Below are positions 7,242 to 26,579 of a stretch of 64,000 nucleotides of DNA, piece after piece. Position numbers and translations under genes: made by a program. Positions within the stretch are counted from its first letter, which is position 1; each line of letters begins with the position of its first letter. The notes beneath the pieces are model-generated. The model was given only the letters and a program-made list of their open reading frames with translations. It was not told the DNA's origin and ran no database searches. The stretch comes from Lentimicrobium saccharophilum. GTDB taxonomy: Bacteria > Bacteroidota > Bacteroidia > Bacteroidales > Lentimicrobiaceae. The stretch spans positions 1,490,968 through 1,554,967 of the forward strand of contig NZ_DF968182.1 in assembly GCF_001192835.1 (NCBI RefSeq), in the 5' to 3' direction.

Positions 7242-7333
7242 CCGGGTATTGAAAAAGTTTGTTTAATATATCTGACTGATTCCATAAACATAAATAAACA
7301 AGATTGGTTCACCAATTTTCGAAAACATGAAAA

Positions 7334-8260
7334 CTAATTATCCCTGTAAGCAGCGGCGATGATCTCCGCGTTGAATTCCGGGCCGTTCATTCCATCCAGC
7401 CACCTGATTTTCAGGCCTTTTTTTTCCATCCTTCTGAACCAGGTCATCTGCCGCTTGGCAAACTGGTGAATAGCGGTGTTCAGGCTGCTGAACATCTCGT
7501 CATAACTGATTTCTCCTGTCAGGTGCATGGTCAGGTACCTGTATTCCAGCCCGTAATACCTGAGGTCTTCAGGAGACACCCCGCTGTTTAATAATTGACT
7601 GACTTCATTCAACATCCCCGCCTCCAGTCTGGCTTTAAGCCGTGCCGTAATCCTTTCGCGGATCAGCACCCGGGGCATGCTGATGCCGAAGATCAGCTGT
7701 CTGTTGGCCTTAACAATCCTCTGCGGAAAATCATGATCCCTGTCGTTATCCGCCATGGCTACTTCTATGGCCCTGATCAGCCGTCCGCGGTCGGTGAGGT
7801 CGGTGGTATTGTGCAGATCCGAAAGTCCCTGAAGCATCTGCGCCAGGGCTTCATCGCTCATGCCGGCGGCCTTCTCCCTGAACACGGGGTCTTCGGGCGC
7901 TTCGGCCAGGCTGTACAGGCCGAGGGCCGTTTCGAGGTACATTCCACTGCCCCCGCAAACCACCACCGGGCGGCTTCGTTGGGTGATCTCCCGCACCGCC
8001 CTGTCGAAATCCCTGCTGTAATCATAGATACTGTAGCGGCTGCCGGCATCGGCAATATCGATCAGATGGGCGGGCACCCGCCCCCCTTCCACCACATAAT
8101 CCTCCATATCCTTGCCGCTGCCGAGGTCCATACCCCGGTATACCTGCCGTGAGTCGGCCGAGATTACTTCAGCCCCCAGCGCACTGGCGGCCAGGGCCGC
8201 AACCCGCGTTTTGCCCGTCGCGGTGGGGCCAAGGATAAAAATCATGCGTTCAGCGTTCAT
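7334..8260 (-). CDS. miaA: tRNA dimethylallyltransferase
   Basis: 308 residues, the normal length. The enzyme transfers a dimethylallyl group to N6 of A37 in tRNAs reading UNN codons. The P-loop GPTATGKT is at residues 11-18. SADSRQVYRGMDLGSGKD (about 34-51) is the tRNA/substrate block, and GGSGMY and RQMTWFRR further on are family signatures. Its ATG overlaps the stop of the upstream glycosyltransferase gene by 4 bases (ATGA), so translation is probably coupled. Confidence 0.95.
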   Translation of the reverse strand: MNAERMIFILGPTATGKTRVAALAASALGAEVISADSRQVYRGMDLGSGKDMEDYVVEGGRVPAHLIDIADAGSRYSIYDYSRDFDRAVREITQRSRPVVVCGGSGMYLETALGLYSLAEAPEDPVFREKAAGMSDEALAQMLQGLSDLHNTTDLTDRGRLIRAIEVAMADNDRDHDFPQRIVKANRQLIFGISMPRVLIRERITARLKARLEAGMLNEVSQLLNSGVSPEDLRYYGLEYRYLTMHLTGEISYDEMFSSLNTAIHQFAKRQMTWFRRMEKKGLKIRWLDGMNGPEFNAEIIAAAYRDN

Positions 8261-11403: not shown

Positions 11404-12057
11404 ATGACAAGGCCAAGGGTAAAAGTCTGCTGCATCGGCAGCATTGAAGAGGCGAAAGCAGCCATGGATGCGGGGGCTTCCGCATTGGGTCTGGTGGGAC
11501 AGATGCCCAGCGGACCGGGGGTGATCGGCGATGAACTGATCCACCGCATTGCCGGCGCGGTGCCGCCGCCGGTCTCCACCTTTCTGCTGACCAGTGAAAC
11601 CAGTGCCACGGATATTATCAGGCATTACAAAAAAGTTTACACCTCCGTTATTCAGCTGGTTGACAAACCGGAAGCAGGCGCTTACGAGGCGCTTCGCCGC
11701 GAACTGCCCTATGTAAAGCTGGTGCAGGTGATCCATGTAAGCGACCACAACTCACTAAACGAGGCCACAGAAGCTGCCGCTTTTGTGGATGCCCTGCTGC
11801 TCGACAGCGGCAATCCCGGCCTGCCGGTAAAGGTGCTGGGCGGCACCGGCCGCACCCACAACTGGGAGATCAGCCGCGAAATCACCCGCTCGGTCACCGT
11901 ACCCGTTTTTCTGGCCGGCGGACTCCACAGCGGCAATGTAAAACAGGCCATAGAAGCGGTGCAGCCCTACGGCCTCGACCTCTGCAGCGGGGTAAGGACC
12001 AACGGGAAACTGGATGCCGTAAAGCTAAAGGCGTTTTTTGAGGCCATTGACATCTAA
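11404..12057 (+). CDS. Phosphoribosylanthranilate isomerase-like protein (orphan TrpF paralogue)
   Basis: 217 residues, a TIM barrel of TrpF type. The start VKVCCIGS matches the family KICGIT block, so Cys9 is the candidate general base, and D134 in ALLLDSG the candidate general acid. GGTGRTHNW, PVFLAGGL and LDLCSGVR match the phosphate-binding C-terminal loops. The second Cys in place of Gly after the catalytic Cys, and QMPSGPG where TrpF usually has FxxxSPR, are atypical. No other trp genes are near; it follows the aromatic hydroxylase gene on the same strand. It may be a diverged paralogue with another substrate. Its last 30 codons are duplicated at 20.17 kb. Confidence 0.75.
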   Translation: MTRPRVKVCCIGSIEEAKAAMDAGASALGLVGQMPSGPGVIGDELIHRIAGAVPPPVSTFLLTSETSATDIIRHYKKVYTSVIQLVDKPEAGAYEALRRELPYVKLVQVIHVSDHNSLNEATEAAAFVDALLLDSGNPGLPVKVLGGTGRTHNWEISREITRSVTVPVFLAGGLHSGNVKQAIEAVQPYGLDLCSGVRTNGKLDAVKLKAFFEAIDI

Positions 12058-12059
12058 AC
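11970..12059 (+). repeat. 3' end of TrpF-like gene, duplicated (copy 1)
   Basis: The last 86 bases of the gene plus the bases after its stop recur at 20168-20257, a constant offset of 8198, with 8 differences in 90 positions. Most differences inside codons are synonymous or conservative. Confidence 0.9.
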
Positions 12060-12352
12060 AGCTAACAATACCATTGCCCGGTGCAGGATTCCGAAAAATT
12101 TCCTGACGGCCACACCAGAGCCCGGGATGGAATGCTTAAACGGCAGTGCAAAAAATATTCAAAATTCCATTGAATATTCTTGACATATGGGTTTCCTTTG
12201 TAACTTTCGGGGGTAATAAGCACCCTGCAATATAGATAAAGATATGGAAATGGAAGCGGGGGCAAATGATTGTAATTGCGTGTAATTAATTAAATGACTA
12301 GTTTGTGGAGGATATTTTCGAGTTATGGCACATTATAGAAAGACAGAGCTAA
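12058..12352 (+). other. Spacer carrying promoter-micro-ORF-boundary module, copy 1
   Basis: After the TrpF-like stop comes about 90 bases of unremarkable sequence. Next is a promoter-like pair, TTG (12180-12182), 18 bases, TAACTTTC (12201-12208), then a 35-base leader, a 13-codon micro-ORF (12244-12285), a TAATTAATTAAATGAC stretch, and the boundary GTTATGGC (12322-12329) 23 bases before the next gene. The same order is found at 20.38-20.51 kb and 21.95-23.41 kb. The sequence turns AT-rich here. Confidence 0.7.
12244..12285 (+). CDS. Micro-ORF copy 1, MEMEAGANDCNCV
   Basis: 13 codons. It shares M-x-A-G-A-x-D-C with the micro-ORFs at 20439 and 22022. Codons for the shared A, G and D differ mainly at third positions, suggesting selection on the peptide. 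It lies 35 bases after a near-consensus promoter box. It could be a leader peptide or the remnant start of a lost gene. Translation is inferred. Confidence 0.45.
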   Translation: MEMEAGANDCNCV

Positions 12353-13534
12353 ATGACAAACATTCGATTTAGAAAAGAAAAAATATCAATTCAGAATATC
12401 GGTCGACAGAGATTTTGGACTGGAATTGTTGCAGGACTGATTTCAGCAATTTCAATTTCATTGTTTTTCAATCATTCAAGAGAAACGCTTAGACTATTGA
12501 CAAGTATGTCCGCGGACTTGCTGATTTTAAAAGAAAATGAACTTCTATTTTTTAACTATTTCTTCTCTTTCCTTTCAACTGTGCTGGGACTTTCAATCAC
12601 AATTTGGATTTGGATGCTGAACAAGAACCATAATCGGAGAAAAGACAGAATTTATAAACAGCTTTCAATTACCAATGCACTTTTAATTTTTTGGGTCATT
12701 CTGATGATAATATCGCGGTTTGGCTCAATCCTACCAATTGTATTATTCGGAACCCCCGGTTTCGACAATCATTTACACCTTTATGAAGAATACTGGATAC
12801 TTTTCGTGTTAATGCCAATTGTGGTATTTATGCAAAGTTGGTTTACTGTTAAACTTGTTTACCAAGCAGGAAGATGGATTTTTCTATCGTTCCTTTTTTG
12901 CATACTGACAGCATTTACACTTCAATTAACAACTACAGTTAATCAAGAAAAACTCAATTCAGCATACCACCAAAGATTTGAAAAAGACTACAACTATATT
13001 GACCAAGAAATAAGAATTGCTAAGGTAAAATATGGGGTAGACTTTGATGAACAGACCATTGAGATTTTGAAAAAACAGATTACTGAAAGTTCTGTGGAAC
13101 AAATTGCAATGGTAAAAAAAGCATTTTCAAGTGACAGACCTGTCTCAATGGACACAATAATCCTTCAAAAGATAATTGTCAGAAACTTTAAAGAAGGCGG
13201 TTGGTATTATTACAGAAGGAACTCAATAGAAAATTGGCGATATGCACTTCCTAACGATATTTTGAAGCAACTTGACTATTTTGAAAGAAGCTCAAACGAG
13301 ACAAAAGAACTTTTCGAGATTTTAAGAGAAATGATTGAATTAGTGAATACACCAGAAATACATTGGGATAAATATCAAAATTTCACACAAACGGAAAGAC
13401 GTAGAAGTTTGGGAGCAAGATATAATATTCCTGACACATTAATTGAACAGTTGATAGAAGTTCGGACAAGACTATTAGAAGACGACCGATATTCTGACTT
13501 TTCAAAGGATTTAAAAGTGATAAAAGACAGATAA
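12353..13534 (+). CDS. Membrane protein of unknown function
   Basis: 393 residues. About five membrane helices occupy the N-terminal half (near 23-42, 67-90, 105-128, 150-170 and 175-195), followed by a charged, mostly helical soluble domain of about 195 residues. No family recognised. Codon use is strongly AT-rich, unlike the GC-rich TrpF-like gene before it, suggesting recent acquisition. The ATG lies 23 bases after the GTTATGGC boundary, and the exact complement GCCATAAC occurs 15 bases after the stop, so the gene looks like a single cassette. A stand-alone membrane protein or a defence or stress sensor are both possible; nothing in the sequence decides. Confidence 0.7.
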   Translation: MTNIRFRKEKISIQNIGRQRFWTGIVAGLISAISISLFFNHSRETLRLLTSMSADLLILKENELLFFNYFFSFLSTVLGLSITIWIWMLNKNHNRRKDRIYKQLSITNALLIFWVILMIISRFGSILPIVLFGTPGFDNHLHLYEEYWILFVLMPIVVFMQSWFTVKLVYQAGRWIFLSFLFCILTAFTLQLTTTVNQEKLNSAYHQRFEKDYNYIDQEIRIAKVKYGVDFDEQTIEILKKQITESSVEQIAMVKKAFSSDRPVSMDTIILQKIIVRNFKEGGWYYYRRNSIENWRYALPNDILKQLDYFERSSNETKELFEILREMIELVNTPEIHWDKYQNFTQTERRRSLGARYNIPDTLIEQLIEVRTRLLEDDRYSDFSKDLKVIKDR

Positions 13535-13549
13535 TGAAAAGAATAACGT

Positions 13550-13682
13550 GCCATAACAGCACTTACCCAAAAGTTGCGGTTCAATGGTTAAATCAAGCTT
13601 TGGGCTTCTATAAAAGTTTATGCCTGGTTGACTGTGAAGTGCTCTGTAATCCCCAACGATTTCATACCTCCCCCCGTTATGC
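13550..13682 (+). other. attC-like nested palindrome after the first accessory gene
   Basis: GCCATAAC (13550-13557) pairs with GTTATGC (13676-13682) at the outer ends, and exactly with GTTATGGC (12322-12329) at the 5' side of the gene. Inside, AGCACTT (13558-13564) pairs with AAGTGCT (13637-13643), and CCCAAA (13567-13572, within one base) with TTTGGG (13599-13604). Outer complementary RYYYAAC/GTTRRRY-like ends with inner arms resemble an integron attC site of about 133 bases. The ends are not canonical and no integrase is in view. Confidence 0.4.
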
Positions 13683-13725
13683 TCCATACTCAAAGTCCAG
13701 AATGATTCAATACTCTGATATTATA

Positions 13726-14571
13726 TTATAAGTTTCGATAGTGTAAGGGTGTATATCCTGTAACTTCTTTGAATGTTTTATTAAAATAGGATATGTTTCC
13801 AAAGCCAGATTCAAAACAAATTTCATTTATTGGTTTTGCCGTGTTCCGAAGCAATTGACAAGCCTGGTTAATTCTGAGTTCTCTTACGCTTTCTAAAAGT
13901 GTTTTTCTCGTTACATTTTTGAAATACCGGCAAAAAGCATTGGGAGACATATTGGCAATTCCTGCTACTGTTTTCAGAGAAATATCATGCTGATAATTTT
14001 GAATCAGGTAGCTGAAAACATTCTGAAAGCGCTCTTTATCAGCTGATAATTTATTGTGCCACGTGAGTGGTTGATCAATAAGTTTTGTTTCTTCTGAATT
14101 TGAAATCAGGTCAAGAATTTCAATCAAAATCAGTATTCTGTGCAATTTATCGGCGGTTAAGCATTGATTTATTTTTGAGATTATTTTAGGCTTTGTTTCA
14201 CCCTGAATAATAATGCCGGCTTCCGATTTTAATATTAATTCCTGAATTTTCTTTAGTTCAGGCAACATCAGGAAGGCATCGCCTGCAAAATTGGAGCGAA
14301 ACTGAATGACTACTGCTTGTGCATTATCAGTCGATGATTCATTCATGCTTTGCCAACAGTGAGGAATATTTGCACCCAACAAAACCAAATCGCCGGGTTC
14401 ATAATCAGAAATATTAATACCCACAAACCGTTTTCCCGAACTATTTCGAATCCAAGTGAGCTCTATTTCCGGATGGAAGTGATAAGGCCCATCAAAGCGG
14501 TTTAAATTTAATTCGACAACTGAAAAAGAGTTTTCAATCCCTGTTGTTATTTGTTCAAATGATGGTTTCAT
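13726..14571 (-). CDS. AraC-family transcriptional regulator
   Basis: 281 residues. An N-terminal cupin-like sensor domain (YHFHPEIELTWI near 30, YEPGDLVLLGANIPHCW near 58-75) is followed by the double helix-turn-helix DNA-binding domain over the last 100 residues. The end shows the family signature: CFESGFGNISYFNKTFKEV and GYTPLHYR. Cupin AraC proteins usually sense a sugar. It is divergent from the GH92-GH127 pair, with an inverted repeat between, so it probably controls them. AT-rich like its neighbours. Confidence 0.9.
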   Translation of the reverse strand: MKPSFEQITTGIENSFSVVELNLNRFDGPYHFHPEIELTWIRNSSGKRFVGINISDYEPGDLVLLGANIPHCWQSMNESSTDNAQAVVIQFRSNFAGDAFLMLPELKKIQELILKSEAGIIIQGETKPKIISKINQCLTADKLHRILILIEILDLISNSEETKLIDQPLTWHNKLSADKERFQNVFSYLIQNYQHDISLKTVAGIANMSPNAFCRYFKNVTRKTLLESVRELRINQACQLLRNTAKPINEICFESGFGNISYFNKTFKEVTGYTPLHYRNL

Positions 14572-14651
14572 TTTGCCATAATTAACAATATAGCTTTAGT
14601 ATTCTTAATTAATTGGTAATATTACACAATTTTCTGCTAATTTAGACAATG

Positions 14652-14680
14652 ACAAACTTTTCAGAGTTCCTGAAATTTGT
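14652..14680. promoter_or_regulatory. Inverted repeat, candidate AraC-type operator
   Basis: ACAAACTTTTCAG, a 5-base spacer, and CTGAAATTTGT form an imperfect inverted repeat between the divergent AraC and GH92 genes, 21 bases before the GH92 ATG. A TAATTTAG box (7 of 8 to TAnnTTTG) lies just upstream of it, so a protein bound here would sit at or just after the GH92 start of transcription. AraC proteins more often use direct repeats, so this is tentative. Confidence 0.35.
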
Positions 14681-14701
14681 TTTCAATAATTCATCCGCGT
14701 A

Positions 14702-16861
14702 ATGAAGAAATATCTCATTATTTTATTTTCGGCTTTTTCTTTATTGATAAATGCACAAAGCAATTCCCGGTATGTAAATGTTTTCATAGGAACTGACGGA
14801 ACAGGACACACTTTTCCGGGACCTTCCATGCCATTTGGTATGGTGCAACCCGGACCCGACAACCGGGATTTTGGCTGGAATTATACCAGCGGTTATCAGT
14901 TTAAAGATACTGTATTGATGGGGTTTTCACAAACCCGGTTTAATGGAACAGGAATAAACGAAATGGGGGATGTTCTGCTACTTCCTATCAATCCGAAAAA
15001 AGAAAAATTAAAAAATTCCTACTTTAAAAACACAGAAACCGGGAAAGTAGGATACTATTCTTTAGTCAAGAAAGACGATGTAAAAGTTGAACTCACCTGT
15101 TCGGAAAGAGTGGCTTTTCATCAATATACTTTTCCCGGTAATGAAGCTCAGGTTTTGGTGGATTTGCAGCACGGTTTGCGTTTTGTTTTTGATGAAATTA
15201 ATCAAAAAGCATTGGTCGTTGAAAGCGATGTAAATGTTGAAAATAACAATACCATTTCAGGATATTGCTCCACTCAAAATTGGGTGAATAGAAAATACTT
15301 TTTTACAATAACTTTTGACCAATCTTTTGTAAAATCAACGCTTCTTGCCAATAAAGAAAACGAAAAAGCCCCGACATACCTGCTTAATTTTTTACTTGCA
15401 AAGAATAGACGTTTAAAGGTTAAAATTGCATTGTCTTCTGTTTCAATAGATGGTGCAAAACTGAATATGCAAAGCGAAATTCCGCATTGGGATTTTGAGA
15501 AATTGTGTCAAGACAATCTTAAAGCCTGGGAAGAATATTTGAGCAGAATCAGCATTGAAGCACCAAAGAAACAAAAAGAAATATTCTATACTTCAATGTA
15601 TCATTTATTTTTACAACCCTCCAATATTGCCGATGTTGACGGGAAATACCGTGGTGTTGACGATAAAATTGCTATAGCGCCCAACAAAGAATACTATTCA
15701 ACGCTTTCTATCTGGGACATATATCGTGGTGCGTTTCCTCTCCTGCAAATTTTAGCTCCGGAGAAAATTAATGGTATTGTTCAAACGATGCTTATCCATC
15801 ACAAAGCCAAAGGTTTTTTGCCGATTTGGACAGCATGGGGTCAGGACAATTATTGTATGATTGGCAATCATTCCATTCCAATGATATTGTCTGCTTATCA
15901 AAATGGGTTTAAATGTTTTGATGCCAGTGAAGCATTAAATGCAATGGTAGAAACTTCAACCATTTCGCATATTAATTCCGATTGGGAGTTGTATAATCAA
16001 TATGGTTATTATCCTTTCGATAAATTGGATAACGAAGCTGTTTCCAGAACATTGGAAAGTGGTTATGATGATTGGTGTGTTGCTGAAATGGCAAAAAAAT
16101 TAAACCAAACCGATGTACTGAATACTTTCAAAAAAAGAGCCAAGTATTACCAAAATATTTATGATAAAGAAACTTCATTTTTCAGAGGAAAAGACAGCAA
16201 AGGAAATTGGCGAAAACCTTTCAACCCATTAATGGCAACCTCTCCAATGAACAACCCCGGTGATTACACAGAAGCCAATGCTTGGCAATATTTTTGGACA
16301 CCAACCCAATATGATATTGAAGGAATAACAGAGCTTTTGGGTGGGACAGAAAATTTTACCAAAAAATTGAATGCGTTTTTTACCACTGAAGCCATAAATC
16401 CTGATAAGTTTTTGGGGCAGGAAGCCATGATTGGGCAATATGCCCATGGCAACGAACCAAGCCATCACATTATCTATTTATATGCTTACAGCAACGAACC
16501 CACATCCGGACAAAAATATATTCATCAAGTAATCAATGAATTTCATAACAATACTCCTGATGGTATGATTGGCAATGATGATTGCGGCCAAATGAGCGCC
16601 TGGTATATACTTTCAACACTGGGATTTTATCCCATCAATCCTGCAAATGGCGAGTTTGTTCTGGGGAGCCCACAATTGAAAAAAGCCACCATTCATCTAC
16701 CTCAAAACAAAAGATTTACCATTGAAGCCAAAGACTTTTCTGAACAAGCCATTTTTAATGAAGCTCGTTTTTTGAATGGAAATATAATCAATGATCCATT
16801 TATAACTTACCAAGATATTATGAATGGTGGCAACATAACCTTCAAAATGACAACCAAATGA
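14702..16861 (+). CDS. GH92 family glycosidase (alpha-mannosidase type)
   Basis: 719 residues. Signal peptide MKKYLIILFSAFSLLINAQ, so exported. Family GH92 enzymes are calcium-dependent exo-acting alpha-mannosidases. The visible signatures are NVFIGTDGTGHTFPGPSMPF near the N-terminus (beta-sandwich domain), SIWDIYRGAFPLL, HGNEPSHH (about 582-589) and NDDCGQMSAWY (about 625), which carry the substrate-binding and catalytic acidic residues of the (alpha/alpha)6 domain. The C-terminus is complete. The stop overlaps the GH127 start in ATGA, so the two are translationally coupled and probably act on the same glycan. No SusC/SusD pair accompanies them. Confidence 0.93.
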   Translation: MKKYLIILFSAFSLLINAQSNSRYVNVFIGTDGTGHTFPGPSMPFGMVQPGPDNRDFGWNYTSGYQFKDTVLMGFSQTRFNGTGINEMGDVLLLPINPKKEKLKNSYFKNTETGKVGYYSLVKKDDVKVELTCSERVAFHQYTFPGNEAQVLVDLQHGLRFVFDEINQKALVVESDVNVENNNTISGYCSTQNWVNRKYFFTITFDQSFVKSTLLANKENEKAPTYLLNFLLAKNRRLKVKIALSSVSIDGAKLNMQSEIPHWDFEKLCQDNLKAWEEYLSRISIEAPKKQKEIFYTSMYHLFLQPSNIADVDGKYRGVDDKIAIAPNKEYYSTLSIWDIYRGAFPLLQILAPEKINGIVQTMLIHHKAKGFLPIWTAWGQDNYCMIGNHSIPMILSAYQNGFKCFDASEALNAMVETSTISHINSDWELYNQYGYYPFDKLDNEAVSRTLESGYDDWCVAEMAKKLNQTDVLNTFKKRAKYYQNIYDKETSFFRGKDSKGNWRKPFNPLMATSPMNNPGDYTEANAWQYFWTPTQYDIEGITELLGGTENFTKKLNAFFTTEAINPDKFLGQEAMIGQYAHGNEPSHHIIYLYAYSNEPTSGQKYIHQVINEFHNNTPDGMIGNDDCGQMSAWYILSTLGFYPINPANGEFVLGSPQLKKATIHLPQNKRFTIEAKDFSEQAIFNEARFLNGNIINDPFITYQDIMNGGNITFKMTTK

Positions 16862-18765
16862 GAACTGCAATACTATCTTTTTTACTTCTTAGCTTCATGC
16901 AACTGATTGCTCAACAAACAGCAGAAAAATTCAATTCTTTTCCTTTCGGAAGTATTAAGCCCGGAGGTTGGCTCAAAGCACAAATGCAAGAAGATATGAA
17001 CGGTTTTGTGGGAAACCTCGACAGAATTGTTCCTGAACTAATTAACGACCCTATTTATGCATCAGGAAGATTGGGGAAAAATAGCAAGGCTAAAGACCTG
17101 GGAAATCTGAAAGAAGGTGATGCCGCCGGCGACGAACAATACAAATGGTGGAACAGCGAAACGCAATCAAACTGGAGGGATGGTTATCTGCGAAATATTA
17201 TATTATTAAATGATGAAGTGGATATTGACAAAGTAAAGAACTATGTTGAACGCATTTTAGCTACACAGGATGAAGATGGATATTTAGGCATTTATGATAA
17301 AGAGATACGATACAAGTTCAATTCTGAAAATGGCGAACTCTGGTCAAAAGCAACTTTGTACCGGGGCCTGCTGGCATATTACGAATATACAAAAGACGAA
17401 CAAGTTTTTATGGCTGTTGAAAGAGCCGTTGCAAATGTTATGGAAAATTATCCCATCAATGTTTCAAGCCCATTTAGTTCCGGAACTTCATTCAATGGTG
17501 GTGTTTCACATGGTTTAACTTTTACCGATGTATTGGAAAGAATGTATTATCTTACTCAAAATAAAAAGTACAGAGATTATGCTCTGTTTCTCTATCATGA
17601 TTTTTCAAACACTTATCAATCGGAAGCCGATGCTCAATTAAAAAATATTTTGAATCCGGATTATAAACTTAAATCACATGGTGTACACACTTTTGAACAC
17701 TTAAGAGCTTTAATTATTGCAAAATATGCCTCCAATGACAAACAACTGGATGATGCGTTAAAAATCTATTTGGAAAGAATTAAAAACGCAACCACCATAA
17801 GTGGAGGTGCTATTGGTGATGAATGGATTAGCGAACGGAATGCTGATGAAACGAATACAGGTTATGAGTATTGTTCGTTACAGGAATTATTGGACAGCTA
17901 TTGTTTGTTATTTCAAAAATCCGGTAAAGCTGAAATAGGTGATGCAATAGAGAACATTTTTTATAATGCAGCACAAGGTGCAAGAAATCCATATCATTCA
18001 TGCATTGCCTATTTAAAAACTGACAATTCATATGAAATGTTGGGTACAAAAAATGGTGAGATTGAGCCGGGCAGAAAACAAACAAGATATAAATACTCGC
18101 CCGCTCATCAGGATGTTGCTGTTTGTTGTAATCCGAATGCAGGTAGGATTTCACCTTATTTTGTTCAAAATTCCTGGATGAAAGAAAACGAAAAAACTTT
18201 GGTTGCAACGTTATTAATGCCGAATATTCTGGAAACCACTCTCAATGGAAATAAAATAGAAATTGAAAATATAACACAATATCCTCACGAAAATGATTTT
18301 AGATTTAAAATAATACAAGCAAACCGATCAAAATTTACACTTAAAATCAGGAAACCTGTCTGGGTAAAAAAGATAAAAACGAATGAAAAATACACAATTG
18401 AAAATGATTATATTGTAATTGAAAGAGATTTTTCCCAAAATGATTATGTGGATATTTCATTTGAAACAGACATTCAAATAAAAACAGCTAATACGGGTTT
18501 TCATTATTTTACCTATGGTGCTTTGCTTTATTCTTTGCCAATTGAAGCAAAGGAAATCGACGGGAAAAATTATATAGACAATCTGGCTGATTTTACATAT
18601 GAACCTGTGGAGCCAGTAAAATATTTATTCAAAGAGGGCGTAAAAATTAATTATAAAAATGGAAAAATACAGACAAAATTAATTAATCAAAATACAGGAA
18701 AGTTAGAAAAAGCAGAACTATTACCAATAGGGAAAACCATTTTGCGACAGACATCTTTCATGTAA
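16858..18765 (+). CDS. GH127-type beta-L-arabinofuranosidase (DUF1680)
   Basis: 635 residues with a signal peptide (ends LIAQQ). The (alpha/alpha)6 barrel shows the zinc-thiolate set of GH127: E337-x-C339 in YEYCSLQ and C423-C424 in VAVCCNPN, equivalent to the Glu, Cys and Cys-Cys pair of Bifidobacterium HypBA1, where one of the paired Cys is the nucleophile. SHGVHTFEHLRALI is another family block. Predicted to remove terminal beta-L-arabinofuranose or a related sugar from plant-type glycans. It follows GH92 with a 4-base overlap and presumably shares its AraC control. Confidence 0.88.
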   Translation: MRTAILSFLLLSFMQLIAQQTAEKFNSFPFGSIKPGGWLKAQMQEDMNGFVGNLDRIVPELINDPIYASGRLGKNSKAKDLGNLKEGDAAGDEQYKWWNSETQSNWRDGYLRNIILLNDEVDIDKVKNYVERILATQDEDGYLGIYDKEIRYKFNSENGELWSKATLYRGLLAYYEYTKDEQVFMAVERAVANVMENYPINVSSPFSSGTSFNGGVSHGLTFTDVLERMYYLTQNKKYRDYALFLYHDFSNTYQSEADAQLKNILNPDYKLKSHGVHTFEHLRALIIAKYASNDKQLDDALKIYLERIKNATTISGGAIGDEWISERNADETNTGYEYCSLQELLDSYCLLFQKSGKAEIGDAIENIFYNAAQGARNPYHSCIAYLKTDNSYEMLGTKNGEIEPGRKQTRYKYSPAHQDVAVCCNPNAGRISPYFVQNSWMKENEKTLVATLLMPNILETTLNGNKIEIENITQYPHENDFRFKIIQANRSKFTLKIRKPVWVKKIKTNEKYTIENDYIVIERDFSQNDYVDISFETDIQIKTANTGFHYFTYGALLYSLPIEAKEIDGKNYIDNLADFTYEPVEPVKYLFKEGVKINYKNGKIQTKLINQNTGKLEKAELLPIGKTILRQTSFM

Positions 18766-19021
18766 CAAAGCATTTTTATTGACTATATTTGATTGTTTAA
18801 TAAACTATTTGCAACAACCCGGCAAGTTCTTGATTTATTGATTTTAATAAAGCACAGAGGCGCAACACGCGGTTTAGTTAATAAGAGTTTCAGCAGGTTT
18901 TCAGTGGGTAATAACCCGCTCTGGAATTTGCTGTAACATGGCAGGTAAAGAGACCGTAATCCCTTACTAACCATAACGCAAAACGCTGTAGCCCTTTTTA
19001 GGACCGAAAAACGACACCTAC

Positions 19022-19567
19022 ATGAGAATAGAATACACATTAGAAAAAATTGATTTTTTAAAGTATCAGCTTTTTGCCGCCTCTAAATCGGAGAGGATAA
19101 TAAAGAGTAGAAAAAACTCCAGAATTAGGGTGCCAATGATTTACTTCATTTTAGGACTTCTCCTTTTTGCACTCGCTGACTTGATTTTTGCCATTATATT
19201 TATTGGAGTTGGTGTTGCGTGGTATTTTCTGCATCCGTACTTTATGAAAAAAAGGTATGTTCGCCATTTTGAAAAATACATTGACGAAAACTATCAAAAT
19301 AGATTCGGCAAGCCGATTACATTGGATTTTAATGAAGAGTATATTATCACAACTGATTATATAGGAGAAAGCAGACTGAAAATTAAAGAGATAGCAGAGA
19401 TTAATGAAATCAATAATTACGTATTTCTTAAATTCTCATCGGGCGAATCATTGATTATCCCAAAAGATAGAATAGAAAACATGAATGAATTAAATAACAT
19501 ACTAACTAAAATCGTTTACGATCTGAGCATCAATCATAATATTGACTTAGATTGGCAATGGAAATAA
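19022..19567 (+). CDS. YcxB-like membrane protein
   Basis: 181 residues. A short N-terminal strand region (MRIEYTLEKIDFLKYQLF) is followed by two adjacent membrane helices (about 38-72), then a beta-rich C-terminal domain containing TLDFNEEYIITTDYIGESRLKIKEIAEINE. That order matches YcxB-like proteins (helix hairpin plus a PH-like domain), whose function is unknown. It is 9 bases before the next gene, so the two form a pair. The 256 bases before it hold short palindromes, including CCATAAC at 18971, but no promoter I could recognise. Confidence 0.6.
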   Translation: MRIEYTLEKIDFLKYQLFAASKSERIIKSRKNSRIRVPMIYFILGLLLFALADLIFAIIFIGVGVAWYFLHPYFMKKRYVRHFEKYIDENYQNRFGKPITLDFNEEYIITTDYIGESRLKIKEIAEINEINNYVFLKFSSGESLIIPKDRIENMNELNNILTKIVYDLSINHNIDLDWQWK

Positions 19568-19576
19568 ATTAAACTA

Positions 19577-20104
19577 ATGACAATCAGAACATTTTGGACA
19601 CTATTTTTAAAAATCCTTGGGATTTGGCTAATTCTAAGTGGATTGACTGTTATTCCTCAATTTATTAGTGCTTTCGCATTTTTTGGAGAGAATCATCAGG
19701 ACAACTTTTTTGCGGCTATTTATATCATCGCCATATTACTTTTAACGGTCGGATTATACTTTGTTGTACTGAAACTATTGGTGTTTAATTCAAATTGGTT
19801 AATTGAAAAGTTGAAGTTAGATAAGGGATTTCAGGAAGAAAAACTGGATTTAAACATAACGCTAAAGACCGTTTTAACAATAGCGACAATTGTGATTGGA
19901 GGTTTAATTCTCGTTGACGCTTTGCCAATGCTATGCAAACAGATTTTCACATTTATGCTGCAGAAATCTGTATTTAGAGAAGGCCCTCAATTTTCCTGGA
20001 TAATTTTTTATTTCATTAAAGCACTTATTGGATACCTTTTAATGACCAATAGTAAAGCGGTGATTAATTACATAGATAAAAAGACAGAAAACATTGAAAA
20101 CTAA
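19577..20104 (+). CDS. Four-helix membrane protein of unknown function
   Basis: 175 residues with about four membrane helices (near 10-30, 45-68, 95-118 and 140-160). Not recognised. It directly follows the YcxB-like gene and is AT-rich. A strong hairpin 25 bases after its stop probably ends the transcript. Confidence 0.65.
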   Translation: MTIRTFWTLFLKILGIWLILSGLTVIPQFISAFAFFGENHQDNFFAAIYIIAILLLTVGLYFVVLKLLVFNSNWLIEKLKLDKGFQEEKLDLNITLKTVLTIATIVIGGLILVDALPMLCKQIFTFMLQKSVFREGPQFSWIIFYFIKALIGYLLMTNSKAVINYIDKKTENIEN

Positions 20105-20128
20105 ATAAAAACGGCTTACAATCGTGTA

Positions 20129-20164
20129 GACGCACCGGTGAGCGGTAAAGCCCACCGGTGCGTC
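20129..20164 (+). terminator. 12-bp stem hairpin, probable terminator
   Basis: GACGCACCGGTG (20129-20140) and CACCGGTGCGTC (20153-20164) form a perfect 12-bp stem with a 12-base loop, followed by TTT only. It ends the two-gene membrane pair and stands 3 bases before the duplicated TrpF fragment, so it could instead be part of a recombination junction. Confidence 0.6.
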
Positions 20165-20167
20165 TTT

Positions 20168-20255
20168 CGGCTTTGACCTCTGCAGCGGGGTAAGGACCAA
20201 TGGAAAACCGGATGCCGTAAAGCTAAAGGCGTTTTTTGAGGCCATTGACGGTTAA
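20168..20255 (+). pseudogene. Fragment: last 28 codons of a TrpF-like gene (copy 2)
   Basis: Reads GFDLCSGVRTNGK, then a Pro for Leu change, and ends AIDG and a stop, against GLDLCSGVRTNGK ... AIDI in the complete gene at 11404-12057. Identity is about 91 % over 90 bases including the stop. No 5' part is present. It looks like the 3' end of a related strain's allele brought in with, or displaced by, the AT-rich block between the two copies. Confidence 0.85.
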
Positions 20256-20572
20256 ACCGACACCCAAAACCCGCCCTGACCGGCAAGAATAACTCAACAG
20301 GCTGCGCAAAAGACTGGTCCGGAATGCATTAATCAAAGTATATGATAATATTAAAATCAGCATAAGAATATCAAAAGCTGGTGTTCTTTTTGTACTTTTA
20401 AGAAGAAAAATGCTTCTTTTATAAGAAGGAAATAAAATATGGAAGCAGGGGCAACTGACTGTTCGCATTAAACAGCATGCTTTGCCCAACCATTTACCCG
20501 TTAGCGGCCATATTCTGAAGACTGTGCAGAACAGAAAATGACCCGCAATAAGTAAAAAAATATCTACAGGCA
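20256..20572 (+). other. Spacer with promoter-micro-ORF-boundary module, copy 2
   Basis: Same layout as copy 1: TrpF stop, about 140 bases, a TACTTTTA box (20393-20400), a 38-base leader containing GAAGAAAAATGCTTCTTTTA, the micro-ORF (20439-20471), then GCCCAAC (20484-20490) and the boundary GTTAGCGGCC (20500-20509), 63 bases before the antiporter ATG. The distance from the TrpF stop to the micro-ORF (about 185 bases) matches copy 1, so the whole arrangement, not just the gene end, is duplicated. Confidence 0.65.
20439..20471 (+). CDS. Micro-ORF copy 2, MEAGATDCSH
   Basis: 10 codons sharing M-x-A-G-A-x-D-C with copies 1 and 3. Compared with copy 1, the Ala and Asp codons differ only at third positions (GCG to GCA, GAT to GAC). 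Downstream of the Cys the copies diverge and stop. Translation is inferred. Confidence 0.45.
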   Translation: MEAGATDCSH

Positions 20573-21742
20573 ATGGCAGTAACCGTTATCATAACATTTT
20601 GCGTTCTTTTACTCATTGCTTATGTATTTGACCTGACATCATCCAAAACGAAAGTTCCGTCCGTTATTCTTTTATTGCTATTAGGGTGGTCAGTCAGACA
20701 ACTGACTACATTCTTTGACATTCAGCTTCCTGATCTTTCTCCCGCCCTGCCGGGCTTAGGGACAATCGGATTAATTCTTATCGTTCTGGAAGGTTCTTTG
20801 GAACTCGAACTTAACAAATCCAGGTACGTGCTGATCAGAAAATCCATTTTCAGCGCACTGATTTCAATGATTGCCCTGGCATTTTTTCTTGCATTTGCAT
20901 TTCAACACTACGGAAACTTCGGGTTTAAAGACAGCCTGACAAATGCAATTCCGTTTTGTGTAATCAGCAGTGCCATTGCAATTCCAAGCGTCAGAAATCT
21001 CTCATCCGTCAACAAAGAGTTTGTGATTTATGAAAGCAGTTTGTCCGACATTTCAGGTGTTCTTATTTTCAACTTTCTTGTACTTAACGAAATAATTGAC
21101 AGATTTTCAATTGGAAACTTCGCGCTGCAGCTTATCATCATCACGGCTGTTTCTTTCGTTGCAACAATCGGACTTTCATTTCTGCTGAGCAAAATTGAAC
21201 ACCATATTAAATTTGTTCCTATTATTTTGCTGATAGTCTTAATTTATGCCGTTTCAGAAATCTACCATCTCCCGGGACTGATTTTTATTTTGCTCTTTGG
21301 TCTGTCAATCGGCAACCTCGACGAGCTGAAACGCTTTAAATGGATTGAAAAATTCAAACCTGAGGAGTTAAACAGGGAGGTAATCAAATTCAGGGAATTG
21401 ACAATAGAAGGAACGTTTCTGGTGAGGGCGTTATTCTTTCTGCTTTTCGGTTACTTAATAGAGACGGGTGAGGTGTTAAATGCGGAAACTCTCCGGTGGA
21501 CATTGTTCATTGTGTTTTTCATCTTCGTTTTCCGCGCAGTGCAGCTGAAACTTTCCAGACTCCCTTTGCTGCCATTACTGTTTGTTGCGCCGAGAGGACT
21601 TATTACCATTTTACTTTTTCTTTCCATTGAACCTGCACATACAATTTCAATTGTAAACAAGTCGCTTATTATTCAGGTTATTGTTCTGACCTCGTTGCTG
21701 ATGATGTTTGGCTTAATGGCTTCCAGGTCTAAAAAGAAATGA
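20573..21742 (+). CDS. Cation:proton antiporter (Na+/H+ exchanger type)
   Basis: 389 residues with about 11-12 membrane helices, an integral inner-membrane protein. GLGTIGLILIVLEGSLEL resembles the helix before the unwound ion-binding region of CPA-type exchangers. ESSLSDISGVLIFN carries the acidic residue expected to bind the ion, and LFVAPRGLITILLF matches the PRG motif of NhaP-like exchangers. It lacks the C-terminal TrkA domains of KefB types. Na+ or K+ exchange cannot be told apart from sequence. It follows the module copy 2 and is less AT-rich than the block before it. Confidence 0.82.
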   Translation: MAVTVIITFCVLLLIAYVFDLTSSKTKVPSVILLLLLGWSVRQLTTFFDIQLPDLSPALPGLGTIGLILIVLEGSLELELNKSRYVLIRKSIFSALISMIALAFFLAFAFQHYGNFGFKDSLTNAIPFCVISSAIAIPSVRNLSSVNKEFVIYESSLSDISGVLIFNFLVLNEIIDRFSIGNFALQLIIITAVSFVATIGLSFLLSKIEHHIKFVPIILLIVLIYAVSEIYHLPGLIFILLFGLSIGNLDELKRFKWIEKFKPEELNREVIKFRELTIEGTFLVRALFFLLFGYLIETGEVLNAETLRWTLFIVFFIFVFRAVQLKLSRLPLLPLLFVAPRGLITILLFLSIEPAHTISIVNKSLIIQVIVLTSLLMMFGLMASRSKKK

Positions 21743-22084
21743 TTGAAAATCTGCAATAACACAGTTTTAATCGAAAAGTATAGTGCAAACGGCCCTGCAG
21801 GAGATGACTGATGAACATAATGCTCACGATATATCCCGCCAGCGGCAGGCTTTTTTCTTCATTTACCCCGCATATTATCCAACTTAGGTTAACCGTTGAA
21901 TCGACAGGATATTCCGGCATAAAAGAATTTCATAAATATTCATTGAATTTCCCAGACATTTTGAATTCTTTTGTAATTTTCGAGGTGATTGCCCCCCTGG
22001 AATACAGATAAGGATTAAGAGATGGTAGCGGGAGCGAGTGATTGTAAATGATTGTAATTAATTAAATGACTAATTAGTTGAGTA
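21743..22084 (+). other. Spacer with promoter-micro-ORF module, copy 3, cut by the IS
   Basis: After the antiporter, about 200 bases hold no recognisable feature. A TAATTTTC box (21974-21981), a 40-base leader and the micro-ORF (22022-22051) follow, then TAATTAATTAAATGACTAAT, identical in large part to 12284-12300. The IS is inserted at 22084/23382; on its right the sequence resumes with the boundary GTTGCGTGGC (23400-23409). Confidence 0.65.
22022..22051 (+). CDS. Micro-ORF copy 3, MVAGASDCK
   Basis: 9 codons with the shared M-x-A-G-A-x-D-C pattern. Gly is GGA here against GGG in the other two copies, and the second shared Ala is GCG against GCA. It lies 40 bases after a promoter-like box. 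Translation is inferred. Confidence 0.42.
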   Translation: MVAGASDCK

Positions 22085-23381
22085 CATTACTGTCCACTTA
22101 AATTAGCCTGAGGGACAGTTGGTTATAAAATGGTTCTTTGACATCTTGGTAGTTCACGTTTTTAAATAGCTCATTAACAGGAGTTTTGTCTAGTAACGAT
22201 ATGCCCAATACCTGTAGAATTTCGTAGGTTGACCGTTCAATTTTCAAGCTGGAACCAACAATGGAGACCAGACAATATGAAATGATGGCCGAATATACTT
22301 GAATACGCACAGCGTTTTCTGTTATACCCCAGAATGCTTTGATCTTCAGATGTTGTTTGATCCACTTGAAGAATAACTCAATCTGCCATCGGTTTTTGTA
22401 TAGGAAAGCAATCTCCTCGGCTGATAGTTCAAAGTTGTTTGAAAGAAAAACAAAAGTCCTGTCTGATTCTTTGTCGTAGAACTTGACCCTGCGGAGTTTT
22501 TCAGGATAGTCTTTGGATACATAAAAGCCGGTAAGCTTGCCGATTTGATCGCTTTTTACCCCAGTTTCTTTGTTGCTTTTTAACGAATACAAACGCTTAA
22601 AGCAAAGGTTCGTTTTTGCTCTGACAACAAAATATGCAGAATGCCGGGTAATTCGGTAGAGTCTTTCAAAATCAACATAGCCCCGATCAAAGATATAATA
22701 GGCTTCAGGCTCATAAACAAGCATATCCATTGCGTTTACATCATGAGCCCCGGCCACAGAGACATGCACAAATGCTGGTATCTGGGTTGTGACATCAAAC
22801 AGTGTATTCAGTTTGATTCCTCCTTTTCGCTTGCGGAATTTAGCCCACCAGAAGACATTCAAACACAAGTCAATGGTGGTAGAGTCAAAAGCATAAACCT
22901 GTCCCTTAATCTTAAAGTCATGATTTTGTCTTTGTTTACGGGCTATGGCAACCAGATGGTAGGCAAATTCTTCAAAGATCCGGTAATCCCTTTTTTCATT
23001 GGCTTTTGCCAGATTGCTCCGGGTTACACTTTTCCCAAAACCTAAGTGATATGATTTGCCTCCATGTGCATTGATTGCAACAATCAAGTCTCTCAAACTA
23101 TCCCGGTTGGTAAGTTGGCCGAATACCATACAAAGCAACTGGTTCCAGCAACTAAAATGCCGTACATGCTTGTTGCCGTGATACTTGCTAACATACTTGT
23201 CAAACACTTTGTACGGCAATAATTCTACAATTTGAGCAAAAACATATTTCCCTTGATTCATGGTTTGCAGGTTTTGCGGCAAACCTAATCAATTCAAATC
23301 GTTCCCAGCTCAAAAAGCTCTGAAAGCGTGATCTGTCAAGGATTTCAAAGAACGTTGGTTAAAATTTAGTGGACACTAATG
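22085..23381 (-). mobile_element. IS4-family insertion sequence, complete, 1297 bp
   Basis: Ends are imperfect terminal inverted repeats, CATTACTGTCCACT on the left and CATTAGTGTCCACT read inward from the right. It is flanked by a 9-bp direct target duplication AGTTGAGTA (22076-22084 and 23382-23390), within the 9-12 bp usual for the IS4 family. It contains one intact transposase gene, so it may still be active. It split the copy 3 module from the gene behind it. Confidence 0.93.
22098..23261 (-). CDS. IS4-family transposase (DUF4372 type)
   Basis: 387 residues from ATG (MNQGKYVFAQ); an in-frame TTG seven codons upstream is less likely. An N-terminal DUF4372-like region (to about 80) precedes the DDE catalytic domain: first Asp in YAFDSTTIDL, second in YYIFDRGYVDF, and Glu in the IS4 Y-(2)-R-(3)-E-(6)-K-type motif YKNRWQIELFFKWIKQ. 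No frameshift or stop interrupts it, so it looks functional. Length is normal. Confidence 0.93.
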   Translation of the reverse strand: MNQGKYVFAQIVELLPYKVFDKYVSKYHGNKHVRHFSCWNQLLCMVFGQLTNRDSLRDLIVAINAHGGKSYHLGFGKSVTRSNLAKANEKRDYRIFEEFAYHLVAIARKQRQNHDFKIKGQVYAFDSTTIDLCLNVFWWAKFRKRKGGIKLNTLFDVTTQIPAFVHVSVAGAHDVNAMDMLVYEPEAYYIFDRGYVDFERLYRITRHSAYFVVRAKTNLCFKRLYSLKSNKETGVKSDQIGKLTGFYVSKDYPEKLRRVKFYDKESDRTFVFLSNNFELSAEEIAFLYKNRWQIELFFKWIKQHLKIKAFWGITENAVRIQVYSAIISYCLVSIVGSSLKIERSTYEILQVLGISLLDKTPVNELFKNVNYQDVKEPFYNQLSLRLI

Positions 23382-23399
23382 AGTTGAGTATATTTATAC

Positions 23400-23409
23400 G
23401 TTGCGTGGC
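23400..23409 (+). other. Boundary GTTGCGTGGC, 5' side of third accessory block
   Basis: Aligns with GTTATGGC (12322) and GTTAGCGGCC (20500); each is followed by A[CT]ATT and GAA. Its reverse complement GCCACGCAAC matches GCCACACAAC at 24032-24041 in 9 of 10 bases, just after the two small genes it precedes. Candidate recombination boundary. Confidence 0.4.
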
Positions 23410-23490
23410 ATATTAGAAAACTAAAACGGGAAATAACTTTGTTAAACAGATAAATTAAAGTAATATTAATTAAATAAAGGAGGAGTAATC

Positions 23491-23637
23491 ATGACCGGAA
23501 TAACTGTAATAATCGTAATTCTTGTTCCCATTGCATTTCAAATTTTTATGCTTCAAATTAAACAGGACAAAAGACACAATGAAATAAAAGAAATCCTCAA
23601 TGGAATTGAGGAAAAACTTGAAAAACATAATCCTTAA
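23491..23637 (+). CDS. Small single-helix membrane protein, 48 residues
   Basis: ATG at 23491 is preceded by AAAGGAGGAGTAATC, a near-perfect ribosome binding site that is rare in this phylum. The protein is one hydrophobic helix (about 3-22, ITVIIVILVPIAFQIFML) followed by a charged helical tail with a heptad-like pattern (IKEILNGIEEKLEK), so it probably lies in the inner membrane with a cytoplasmic coiled coil. Its stop is 2 bases before the ATG of the next gene, so the two are coupled and may form a complex. No family recognised. Confidence 0.7.
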   Translation: MTGITVIIVILVPIAFQIFMLQIKQDKRHNEIKEILNGIEEKLEKHNP

Positions 23638-23639
23638 AT

Positions 23640-24047
23640 ATGGAGGAATCAACTTTTGATGCAAAACATGACAAGAATGCACCATATTGGGCTGCAGCAC
23701 TTGTATTTTTTGGTATATTAGGATTATCGACAATTTGGATTGATTTTGGAAAATTTTGGAAGGGATACTTGCTTGACATGGCAGGGCCTGCCTGGAATTA
23801 TATATTATTTCGGGGACTTTTCACATACAAAACAAACAATTCATGGACACGTTTTTTTTCACCAAATAGAACTTTGGTAATATTTCTGATAGTGTGTTTT
23901 GGAATTGAAACTTTGCAATATTTTAAGATTTACGATTCAACATTTGATACTTGGGATTTTCTTGCTTACATTTCTGTGCTTGTCCCAGTGTTTTTAATAG
24001 ACAAAAGCTCGATTAAAAAAAGTAGAAATACGCCACACAACACGTAA
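23640..24047 (+). CDS. Small membrane protein, VanZ/DUF2809-like
   Basis: 135 residues with about four membrane helices (near 17-35, 47-60, 78-97 and 104-122). The C-terminal half, FGIETLQYFKIYDSTFDTWDFLAYISVL, has the E-(3)-Q plus D-x-x-D layout of VanZ/DUF2809 proteins. Those are small membrane proteins; VanZ itself lowers teicoplanin sensitivity, the others are unassigned. Translationally coupled to the preceding 48-residue protein. Its last codons contain the attC-like left end. Confidence 0.6.
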   Translation: MEESTFDAKHDKNAPYWAAALVFFGILGLSTIWIDFGKFWKGYLLDMAGPAWNYILFRGLFTYKTNNSWTRFFSPNRTLVIFLIVCFGIETLQYFKIYDSTFDTWDFLAYISVLVPVFLIDKSSIKKSRNTPHNT

Positions 24048-24168
24048 TAAAAAACATAGGGAGAAAAGTGCTAAATTTGAACGACATATCATTTAATAAA
24101 AAGTTTAATAGCTTGATAGATTGGTTCTTTGATATGCCCTAAGTTTCTTATTGCCGGGCCGTTGTGTG
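24032..24168 (+). other. attC-like nested palindrome after the small membrane gene pair
   Basis: Outer arms GCCACACAAC (24032-24041) and GTTGTGTG (24161-24168) are complementary over CACACAAC. An inner pair CATATCA (24085-24091) and TGATATG (24130-24136) is also exact. Length is 137 bases, within the range of long attC sites such as Vibrio VCRs. The left arm pairs 9/10 with the boundary at 23400, as expected if a cassette carries its own 5' half-site. The outer ends deviate from canonical RYYYAAC/GTTRRRY. Confidence 0.4.
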
Positions 24169-24204
24169 CAACTATGGGAAACGCCTGCTATAAACAAATA
24201 AGCA

Positions 24205-24597
24205 ATGACAATGAAGACGATTAAGAAAACAATCTTGCCAGTTCTGATAGCAACAATCTGGATTAGCATATCCGAATTTGTCAGAAATGAGTTTTTGCTA
24301 AAATCATATTGGACAGACCATTATGAAAGTATGGGATTGAATTTTCCATCCGAACCAATTAATGGAATAATATGGGGAATATGGTCATTATGTTTTGCCA
24401 TCAGCATATATATTTTTGCCAAGAAGTTTACATTGATGCAGACAACCTTTATTGCATGGTTTGTCGGGTTCGTTTTTATGTGGCTTGTGATTGGCAATCT
24501 GAATGTTTTACCGTTTGGAATTTTACCTTTTGCAATCCCGTTAAGTATTTTAGAAGCATTTCTGGCTTCGTTAATCGTTAAAAAGGTAAAAATATAA
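24205..24597 (+). CDS. Small membrane protein of unknown function
   Basis: 130 residues, about four hydrophobic helices (near 9-26, 52-72, 78-98 and 100-124). An ATG two codons later (MKTIKK) is an equally good start. It begins 37 bases after the GTTGTGTG boundary. Not recognised. AT-rich like the rest of the block. Confidence 0.65.
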   Translation: MTMKTIKKTILPVLIATIWISISEFVRNEFLLKSYWTDHYESMGLNFPSEPINGIIWGIWSLCFAISIYIFAKKFTLMQTTFIAWFVGFVFMWLVIGNLNVLPFGILPFAIPLSILEAFLASLIVKKVKI

Positions 24598-25859: not shown

Positions 25860-25949
25860 ACGATTCTACCCCTGAGTGAGCTGAGGGGGACTGTTCTGGT
25901 AAGGAAAATTCATATGCAAGCATTCGTGGCATAAGGATTCAAAGATTCA

Positions 25950-26335
25950 AAGATTATTTCGGTGGTTGAGCGGCGGTGGTCGAGCGGAGCCGAGACCAGC
26001 CGATATTCAAAGATTAGCTCCGCTGAGCTCCTTTCGGTCGGTTCAAAAATTCAAAGATTATTTCGGTGGTTGAGTGGAGCCGAAACCATCCGATATTCAA
26101 AGATTAGCTCCGCTGAGCTCCCTTCGGTCGGTTCAAAAATTCAAAGATTATTTCGGTGGTTGAGCGGAGCCGAAACCATCCGATATTCAAAGATTAGCTC
26201 CGCTGAGCTCCCTTCGGTCGGTTCAAAAATTCAAAGATTATTTCGGTGGTTGAGCGGAGCCGAAACCATCCGATATTCAAAGATTAGCTCCGCTGAGCTC
26301 TCCCGATAGCTATCGGGATCGGTTCAAAAATTCAA
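25950..26335. repeat. 90-bp tandem repeat, about four copies
   Basis: Equivalent positions GTTCAAAAAT occur at 26041, 26131, 26221 and, after an 11-base length increase caused by the palindrome insertion, 26322. Units are nearly identical. Each unit has TTTCGG ... CCGAAA arms around GGTTGAGCGGAG and a second AGCTCCGCTGAGCT palindrome. Because 90 is a multiple of 3, a frame stays open (25962-26309), but the structure points to non-coding hairpins. Confidence 0.9.
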
Positions 26336-26579
26336 AAAAAACTGCGGGTTTCAGTGTTTCTGTGCTTTGGTGGCAATTAAATTCGTGTCCCAATCGCTAT
26401 CGGGATCGTGGCTTTTAATTCACGCATTCGTGTCCCGTTGGCTATGCGGCAACAGTCGGGGGATATGCGATCGTAATTCCTGAGTTTCCATGACAAAACA
26501 TCCATCCGGTTACATCCATCAACCTATTTATGAACATATGTTCGGATATTTACTGATATTTCTCAGTCAGGGCCGGATT

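Follow-up and report, generated by a model that had tools for sequence, protein, structure and literature searches.

We examined a 64-kb window (64,000 nucleotides of contig NZ_DF968182.1) of Lentimicrobium saccharophilum, whose genome comprises 4.5 Mb in two contigs. A stretch of low G+C content at about 12–26 kb of this window carries three micro-open reading frames (micro-ORFs) that encode similar short peptides (Table 1). All three lie within copies of a longer DNA module of approximately 110–150 bp, which resembles attI, the primary recombination site of integrons. In the L. saccharophilum genome the module stands beside trpF and beside a gene for a 140-aa protein, which is itself next to a putatively RsgA-like GTPase gene.

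Table 1. Features around modules A, B and C, with positions in the 64-kb window unless a locus is given
Feature	Position	Strand	Remarks
Module A, attI-like	12188..12325	+	profile match 147.1 bits (copy used to build the model); GTT at 12322
Promoter-like box of module A	12201-12208		TAACTTTC
Micro-ORF 1, copy A	12244-12285	+	peptide MEMEAGANDCNCV
Direct repeats of module A	12267-12275; 12277-12285		TGATTGTAA; TGCGTGTAA
Micro-ORF 2, copy A	12294..12338	+	MTSLWRIFSSYGTL; runs over the crossover into the cassette
Gene cassette A	12322..13675	+	starts GTTATGGCAC, ends in a putative degenerate attC
Gene of cassette A	12353-13534		membrane protein; Tetraspanin match below the Pfam cut-off
Putative attC of cassette A	13548..13681	+	from GTGCCATAAC, which inverts the cassette start exactly, up to the following GTTATGC (13676)
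Hairpin upstream of module B	20128..20165	+	16 bp, terminator-like; fold z -4.54
Further copies of the hairpin	L046:3120-3155; L047:10237-10303; L045:5259-5304; L067:5857-5892		
Duplicated trpF 3' end upstream of module B	20168..20257	+	91% to 11970-12059; trpF matches PRAI
Module B, diverged attI-like copy	20380..20503	+	82.3 bits (used to build the model); GTT at 20500
Micro-ORF 1, copy B	20439-20471	+	peptide MEAGATDCSH
Cassette-like region B	20500..21742	+	gene 20573-21742, hydrophobic protein, no Pfam match at 0.001
Module C, left part	21961..22088	+	119.4 bits (used to build the model)
Micro-ORF 1, copy C	22022-22051	+	peptide MVAGASDCK
Insertion sequence (IS)	22091..23375	-	transposase 22098-23282 (DDE_Tnp_1 and DUF4372); ends TGTCCACT...AGTGGACA; splits module C
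Module C, right end	23376..23402	+	CTAATGAGTTGAGTATATTTATAC; crossover GTT at 23400
Gene cassette C	23400..24168	+	starts GTTGCGTGGC; ORF 23640-24047, no Pfam match
attC of cassette C	24032 to 24161		from GCCACACAAC (24032, 9/10 inverse) to the next GTTGTGTG (24161)
Next cassette-like unit	24161..24597	+	ORF 24205-24597

The genomes searched were 19 congeneric (Lentimicrobium-type) genomes, 99 relatives and 393 genomes of the order. We found 15 copies of the module in four of the 19 congeneric genomes: A–E in the genome of the window, F–J in G013, K and L in G004, and M–O in G009, where the module occupies three places. A profile model was built from 11 copies (A–K), and its search added only L, M and N. 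It scored at most 150 candidates per genome, and more diverged copies may be missed, as was copy O, which we reached by another route (see below). Blastn of the module against the 99 relatives missed the copies in G004 and G009, and its tally of eight relatives includes six weak matches (E 0.004–0.009), which were excluded from the copy count. Within the window, no Rfam family matched at gathering score, and a tRNA attachment site was ruled out as no tRNA is present.

The copies share a promoter-like box of the TAATTTT type (TGTAATTTT, also written TAATTTTC), which is exact in nine of the 15 (C, D, E, H, I, J, K, N and O), and one base off in A, B and M; F and G have GTAATTTG, and in L the box is masked by N. 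Of the 14 uninterrupted copies, 11 have it 101–125 nt before the module end; the variant boxes lie 112 nt (G) and 133 nt (F) before the crossover. A role like that of Pc, the integron cassette promoter, is predicted for this box. A TGNTTGTAA-type direct repeat starts 44–46 nt before the end in eight of the 15 copies (A, E, F, I, L, M, N and O). A second one lies 10–20 nt further upstream in A, E and F, and in module A the two repeats begin 55 and 45 nt upstream of the crossover. The end itself is abrupt, with ATT in I and N and GTT in the other 13 copies.

Different genes follow the same module at orthologous positions, which were assigned by the flanking 140-aa gene (E, H and K) or by the next module in the same locus (D, G and L). 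At these sites the left flanks and the modules are highly similar, and to the right of the GTT similarity drops to chance level. The identities of left flank, module and cassette start were 0.86, 0.81 and 0.35 for D/G, 0.81, 0.71 and 0.43 for D/L, 0.84, 0.70 and 0.47 for G/L, and 0.94, 0.74 and 0.58 for E/H (shuffled null: median 0.52, 95% 0.62). In the pair H/K, where the same gene follows, the identity was 0.86 in the module and 0.95 in the cassette, and B/J had 0.66 in the far-left segment and 0.07 in the cassette. The far-left values of E/K and H/K are low (0.18) because K carries extra DNA there.

In an integron cassette, the R'' box of the attC is the inverse of the bases with which that cassette begins. 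Behind the cassette gene, an inverse of the ten initial bases is present as an exact match at A and M and with nine of ten positions at C and N. Among 625 control GTT positions, an inverse within 2.5 kb was exact in three cases, had at most one mismatch in 58 and at most two in 427. The inverse at O (8/10) is thus at control level; its informative value lies solely in its position immediately ahead of an attC-like hairpin. In total, five of the 15 modules (A, C, M, N and O) are followed by a cassette and attC-like signature, and an exact one is present without a module in genome G011 (locus L090). The bottom strands of four of these sites folded with z-scores of −4.80 (O), −4.47 (M), −2.54 (C) and −1.94 (N), and attC M and attC N are 80% identical behind different genes.

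With attC N as the sole query, a search of the 19 genomes returned four places: attC N itself, attC M, the G011 site and locus L092 of G009. The cassette at L092 starts at a module, copy O, absent from the list of the first model search. Module O scores only 24.8 bits (E 0.003 for the 3,090-base locus alone, 0.18 among 182,610 bases), but its box and repeat are at the usual distances and it ends at the cassette start. Reaching module O from attC N is the strongest single piece of evidence that we obtained. As to array length, L090 shows one attC and, by eye, an attC-like stretch ahead of its cassette, and behind N there is one attC, with a CGCTAAC beyond the gene that follows. The gene of the unit next to cassette C recurs after an attC-like stretch in G013 (L045:393-785).

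We conclude that the module probably works like an attI site equipped with a cassette promoter. Each micro-ORF would then lie inside an attI-like primary recombination site with its own promoter, and the direct repeats would be candidate binding sites for an integrase. An integron integrase, active in the past or acting from elsewhere, would recombine the folded bottom strand of an attC with the module at G|TT, and the captured gene would thereby come directly under the module promoter. Solitary, repeated attI-like sites without intI would represent a new integron variant, with an inferred function. The last checks left our confidence unchanged, the fold at O speaking for the attI interpretation and that of the G011 attC against it.

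Several observations weigh against an attI-like function. Ten of the 15 module sites have no counted cassette signature: G, H and I have inverses of 8/10, which is control level; B, D, E and J have three or more mismatches (for region B the best inverse has three); a 9/10 match of K lies beyond module L and was not counted; and F and L offered only 704 and 438 nt of downstream DNA for the search. The exact-inverse statistic is small (2/14). The bottom strand of attC A folds no better than its shuffles (z +0.67), nor does the G011 site in spite of its exact inverse pair (z +0.89). A rule-based attC finder gave no separation, with nine forward versus ten reverse matches, although this test is ill-posed because R' and R'' of one array attC belong to different cassettes. 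The TGNTTGTAA-type repeat was not found by pattern in B, D, G, H, J and K, and in C both repeats are present with their spacing broken by the IS. An L box was not identified in the module copies.

The integrase searches belong to the same side of the balance. attI docking sites normally adjoin their integrase, for which they are in general specific, and integrons are defined by intI next to attI. No intI, which a complete integron requires, was detected beside the modules, and strict membership fails on this point. The integron integrase profile TIGR02249 had no match in the 19 congeners at E≤1e-40, and none in the control genomes. Over the 393 genomes of the order it gave six matches above the cut-off at E≤1e-45; none of these was in the six congeners among the genomes listed (G009 and G013 lay outside this set). 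Four of the six IntI proteins were compared with the array loci by tblastn, with nothing better than E 0.75, and ten module queries (A–J) against the six intI loci gave nothing better than E 0.015 over 20 nt. The ORF list for about 9 kb on either side of N, judged by reading without a family search of the set, contained no recombinase-like gene.

A 603-aa tyrosine recombinase is encoded elsewhere in the L. saccharophilum genome (G000:C1:1999821-2001629, L038). It has an IntI-like catalytic part and an extra N-terminal region (DUF5710 below cut-off), and it is 70–71% identical in three congeners. We rejected it as an integrase acting in trans: at E≤1e-60 it was present in six of the 19 congeners and in none of the other three that carry modules.

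Homologous recombination between modules could swap the downstream DNA without any site-specific recombinase. This explanation is in keeping with the failure to find an integrase and with the tandem arrangement of modules, three of which lie within about 3.1 kb in G013 (contig C91). It also fits the duplicated trpF 3' end and the hairpin units. Hairpins of the type ACCGGTGAGC...GCCCACCGGT were located by blastn upstream of five modules (B, D, G, J and L) in three genomes, and a more degenerate remnant of the trpF end, together with a hairpin, precedes module J in G013 (L045, about 5320-5400). A trpF protein search (E≤1e-30) had no match in any further genome of the 19 congeners. These hairpin and trpF units were probably multiplied by recombination between copies, and the tandem duplication of modules may well have the same origin. 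As an account of the whole pattern, however, plain recombination appears unlikely: it leaves unexplained why similarity breaks off at the same GTT in one copy after another, and it does not account for inverted cassette ends and attC-like sites.

A variant compatible with the attI interpretation is that the internal copies (B, C, D, F, G, I, J and L) are the 3' ends of cassettes that terminate in an attI-type site, so that attI-gene-attI units move as a whole. The order module-gene-module in the window, in G013 and in G004 would agree with this. So would the delta-attI-type cassettes of class 1 integrons, one of which has a whole attI1 on both sides and which recombine, according to PMC12901181. 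The cases reported there are, however, mostly remnants of 14–18 nt. Moreover, the internal units carry a hairpin, trpF or other upstream DNA not expected of attI, and we saw no excision product. We therefore regard movement of whole units as rather doubtful. With similarly low confidence, we suggest a dispersed integron: the genus would keep several solitary promoter-attI sites, each expressing its own cassettes, with an integrase supplied in trans (absent from the genome, or an unrecognizable IntI) and attI-cassette-attI tandems being common.

The first-pass annotation had interpreted the three frames as encoding a selected leader peptide, M-x-A-G-A-x-D-C. The frames are present on the plus strand as described and the motif exceeds chance: ATG-x-GCN-GGN-GCN-x-GAY-TG occurs three times in the window, whereas 300 windows simulated with a first-order model contain it 0.0 times on average. 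The same pattern ending in TGY occurs three times in the L. saccharophilum genome and once each in two of 98 other relatives searched. A box ending 35–40 nt before each ATG was likewise recovered, as a −7-like box that starts 43, 46 and 48 nt before it. The reported GTT boundary near each frame was found for A and B but not for C, where the IS lies between. The surrounding DNA, described as diverged, is so only in part: positions 12196-12316 and 21968-22088 are 74% identical over 121 nt, and conservation is therefore not confined to the frame.

Of the 15 copies, seven (A, B, C, D, F, H and K) have micro-ORF 1 open from an ATG in the corresponding position, with the full motif behind the ATG in A, B and C only. 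The start codon is ATA in E (with an in-frame ATG upstream), TTG in L and ACG in J; G has a stop after three codons; a deletion shifts the frame in I and J; and M, N and O contain nothing similar. Changes among the three copies of the window are mostly synonymous, as the annotation had stated (8.0 synonymous and 5.0 nonsynonymous pairwise differences; nonsynonymous-to-synonymous ratio, pN/pS, 0.16). This does not extend to the ten indel-free copies, with 51.8 synonymous and 173.2 nonsynonymous differences and a pN/pS of 0.91 (other two frames: 0.74 and 1.08). Nonsynonymous changes as numerous as synonymous ones, or frame-breaking indels, in further copies had been named beforehand as grounds for abandoning the selected peptide, and both occurred.

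A translated peptide that regulates the downstream gene would be in line with the open frames, with the alternative starts in E and L, and with the low pN/pS of A, B and C; without the nonsense copy G, frame 1 also has the lowest value (0.74, versus 0.95 and 0.94 in the other frames). Set against the rarity of the full motif, its disruption in E, G, I and J, its absence from M, N and O and the ratio over ten copies, this explanation is very improbable. We found no evidence for selection on the micro-ORF 1 peptide; with few copies, which are related to one another, absence of such selection is not proven. A role as a leader ORF is still possible. What did hold of the annotation is the repeated expression module: a repeated module with a promoter-like box exists, and promoter activity is predicted. 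Its repeatedly used insertion point is also supported, and would be the GTT end of an attI-like site and not the remnant start of a gene.

The peptide may instead be a by-product of the DNA site. Its Asp-Cys codons are part of the direct repeat TGATTGTAA, and the Ala-Gly-Ala codons (GGGAGC) could pair with an upstream GCTCCC. Covariation gives this stem no support beyond shuffles; 86.4% of cells were paired versus 85.4% in column shuffles and 38–56% when slid, for a structure derived from the same alignment. Among five leader folds, that of F was significant (z −3.40), while those of A (+0.97), C (0.00), D (−0.94) and K (−0.69) were not. The case illustrates that a DNA site can be mistaken for a selected peptide when few copies are sampled.

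If a leader ORF is relevant, the better candidate would be a second frame that starts in the module and crosses the crossover. This frame is open across the crossover in ten of the 15 copies, with the same frame relation. It begins exactly 28 nt before the crossover, with ATG in A, D, E, F, G, H, I, K and L and GTG in J, and in four of the ten (F, H, J and K) it stops at the crossover. Its residues are not conserved (pN/pS 1.53). In class 1 integrons, ORF-11 overlaps the attI1 crossover and has its stop in GTTAG, and residue changes are reported to have only a slight effect (PMC8876359). The frame relation of the second micro-ORF corresponds to that of ORF-11, a short ORF over the crossover with a stop from the cassette GTTAG, and by analogy it may have a role in translation. 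By the same analogy, the second frame appears to be the better parallel to ORF-11 and a better leader candidate than micro-ORF 1.

Cassettes are integrated away from intI at attG sites; unlike these, the target described here is a repeated conserved sequence with direct repeats. A further close likeness is to class 1 attI1/Pc. attI1 has two direct repeats upstream of the L-R boxes and approximately 65 bp in all (PMC4792948), and the module likewise has a promoter-like box, direct repeats before the crossover, putative insertion at GTT and a short ORF over the crossover. It differs from class 1 integrons in having no adjoining or genus-detected intI, several copies per genome and no identified L box. 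The stop of the crossing frame, TAG (F, H and K) or TAA (J) at positions 3–5 of the cassette GTTAG or GTTAA, is like that of ORF-11 (PMC8876359); unlike ORF-11, the frame has no conserved residues. As with ORF-17 of class 1 integrons, the module has a second short upstream frame with its own stop; unlike ORF-17, which overlaps ORF-11, frame 1 of A–C ends before frame 2 starts.

Clusters of attC lacking an integron integrase (CALIN; PMC9024848), which comprise at least two neighbouring attC, share with our arrays chromosomal attC-like cassettes without a detected intI, here in metagenome-assembled genomes and a near-complete genome. Unlike that definition, the module arrays start at a recognizable attI-like site with a promoter-like box. 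They share the attI-gene-attI architecture with the delta-attI-type cassettes of PMC12901181, but consist of whole promoter-attI-like modules on chromosomes, where the latter are mostly short remnants in mobile integrons. The titles and abstract beginnings of the open-licence literature, among the matches listed, included no solitary or repeated attI without intI.

Integrons are little recorded in Bacteroidota: for Bacteroidetes proper, the IntegronFinder 2.0 paper (PMC9024848) mentions one complete integron, that of Salinibacter, and our profile search gave intI above the cut-off in six of 393 genomes of the order. If the attI interpretation is correct, the part of an integron that serves for docking and expression can persist after its recombinase is lost, or be uncoupled from it. 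This raises the question of whether an integrase in trans uses these sites.

The genes beside some modules deserve mention. After module D, four consecutive genes (L047:6841-9910) have ThsB matches in PADLOC, the last one weak (E 0.0022). Three of the four were Pfam-scanned and contain ThsB_TIR and/or TIR_2, making this a candidate anti-phage cluster. Module G is followed by a DUF1016/YhcG PDDEXK nuclease (L046:1671-2711; PADLOC PDC-S02, E 1.6e-125). With TIR/ThsB-like proteins and a DUF1016 nuclease after modules, defence genes may enter the chromosome at these sites. A gene for an AraC/GyrI-like protein with the Pfam domain Cass2 (integron-associated effector binding protein; E 1e-26; L045:2123-3085) lies just upstream of module I.

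An exact core pattern of the module matched only E, I, M and N of 14 copies. It found five stretches in a collection of 84,980 genomes (from which the L. saccharophilum genome was possibly omitted), three of them being G013 and G009 themselves. On visual inspection, the matches in Ignavibacteria (L073), Desulfococcaceae (L074) and a single viral contig (L071) lacked a promoter box, and we regarded them as chance.

The last ~20 nt of module C recur, with slight differences, to the right of the IS, a pattern that simple target duplication would not produce. Between the array and the next gene of the window, positions 25934-26347 consist of near-identical 90-bp tandem repeats (TTCAAAGATTATTTCGGTGGTTGAGCGG...), and similar tandem repeats were seen by eye in G013 (L045, about 7220-7390).

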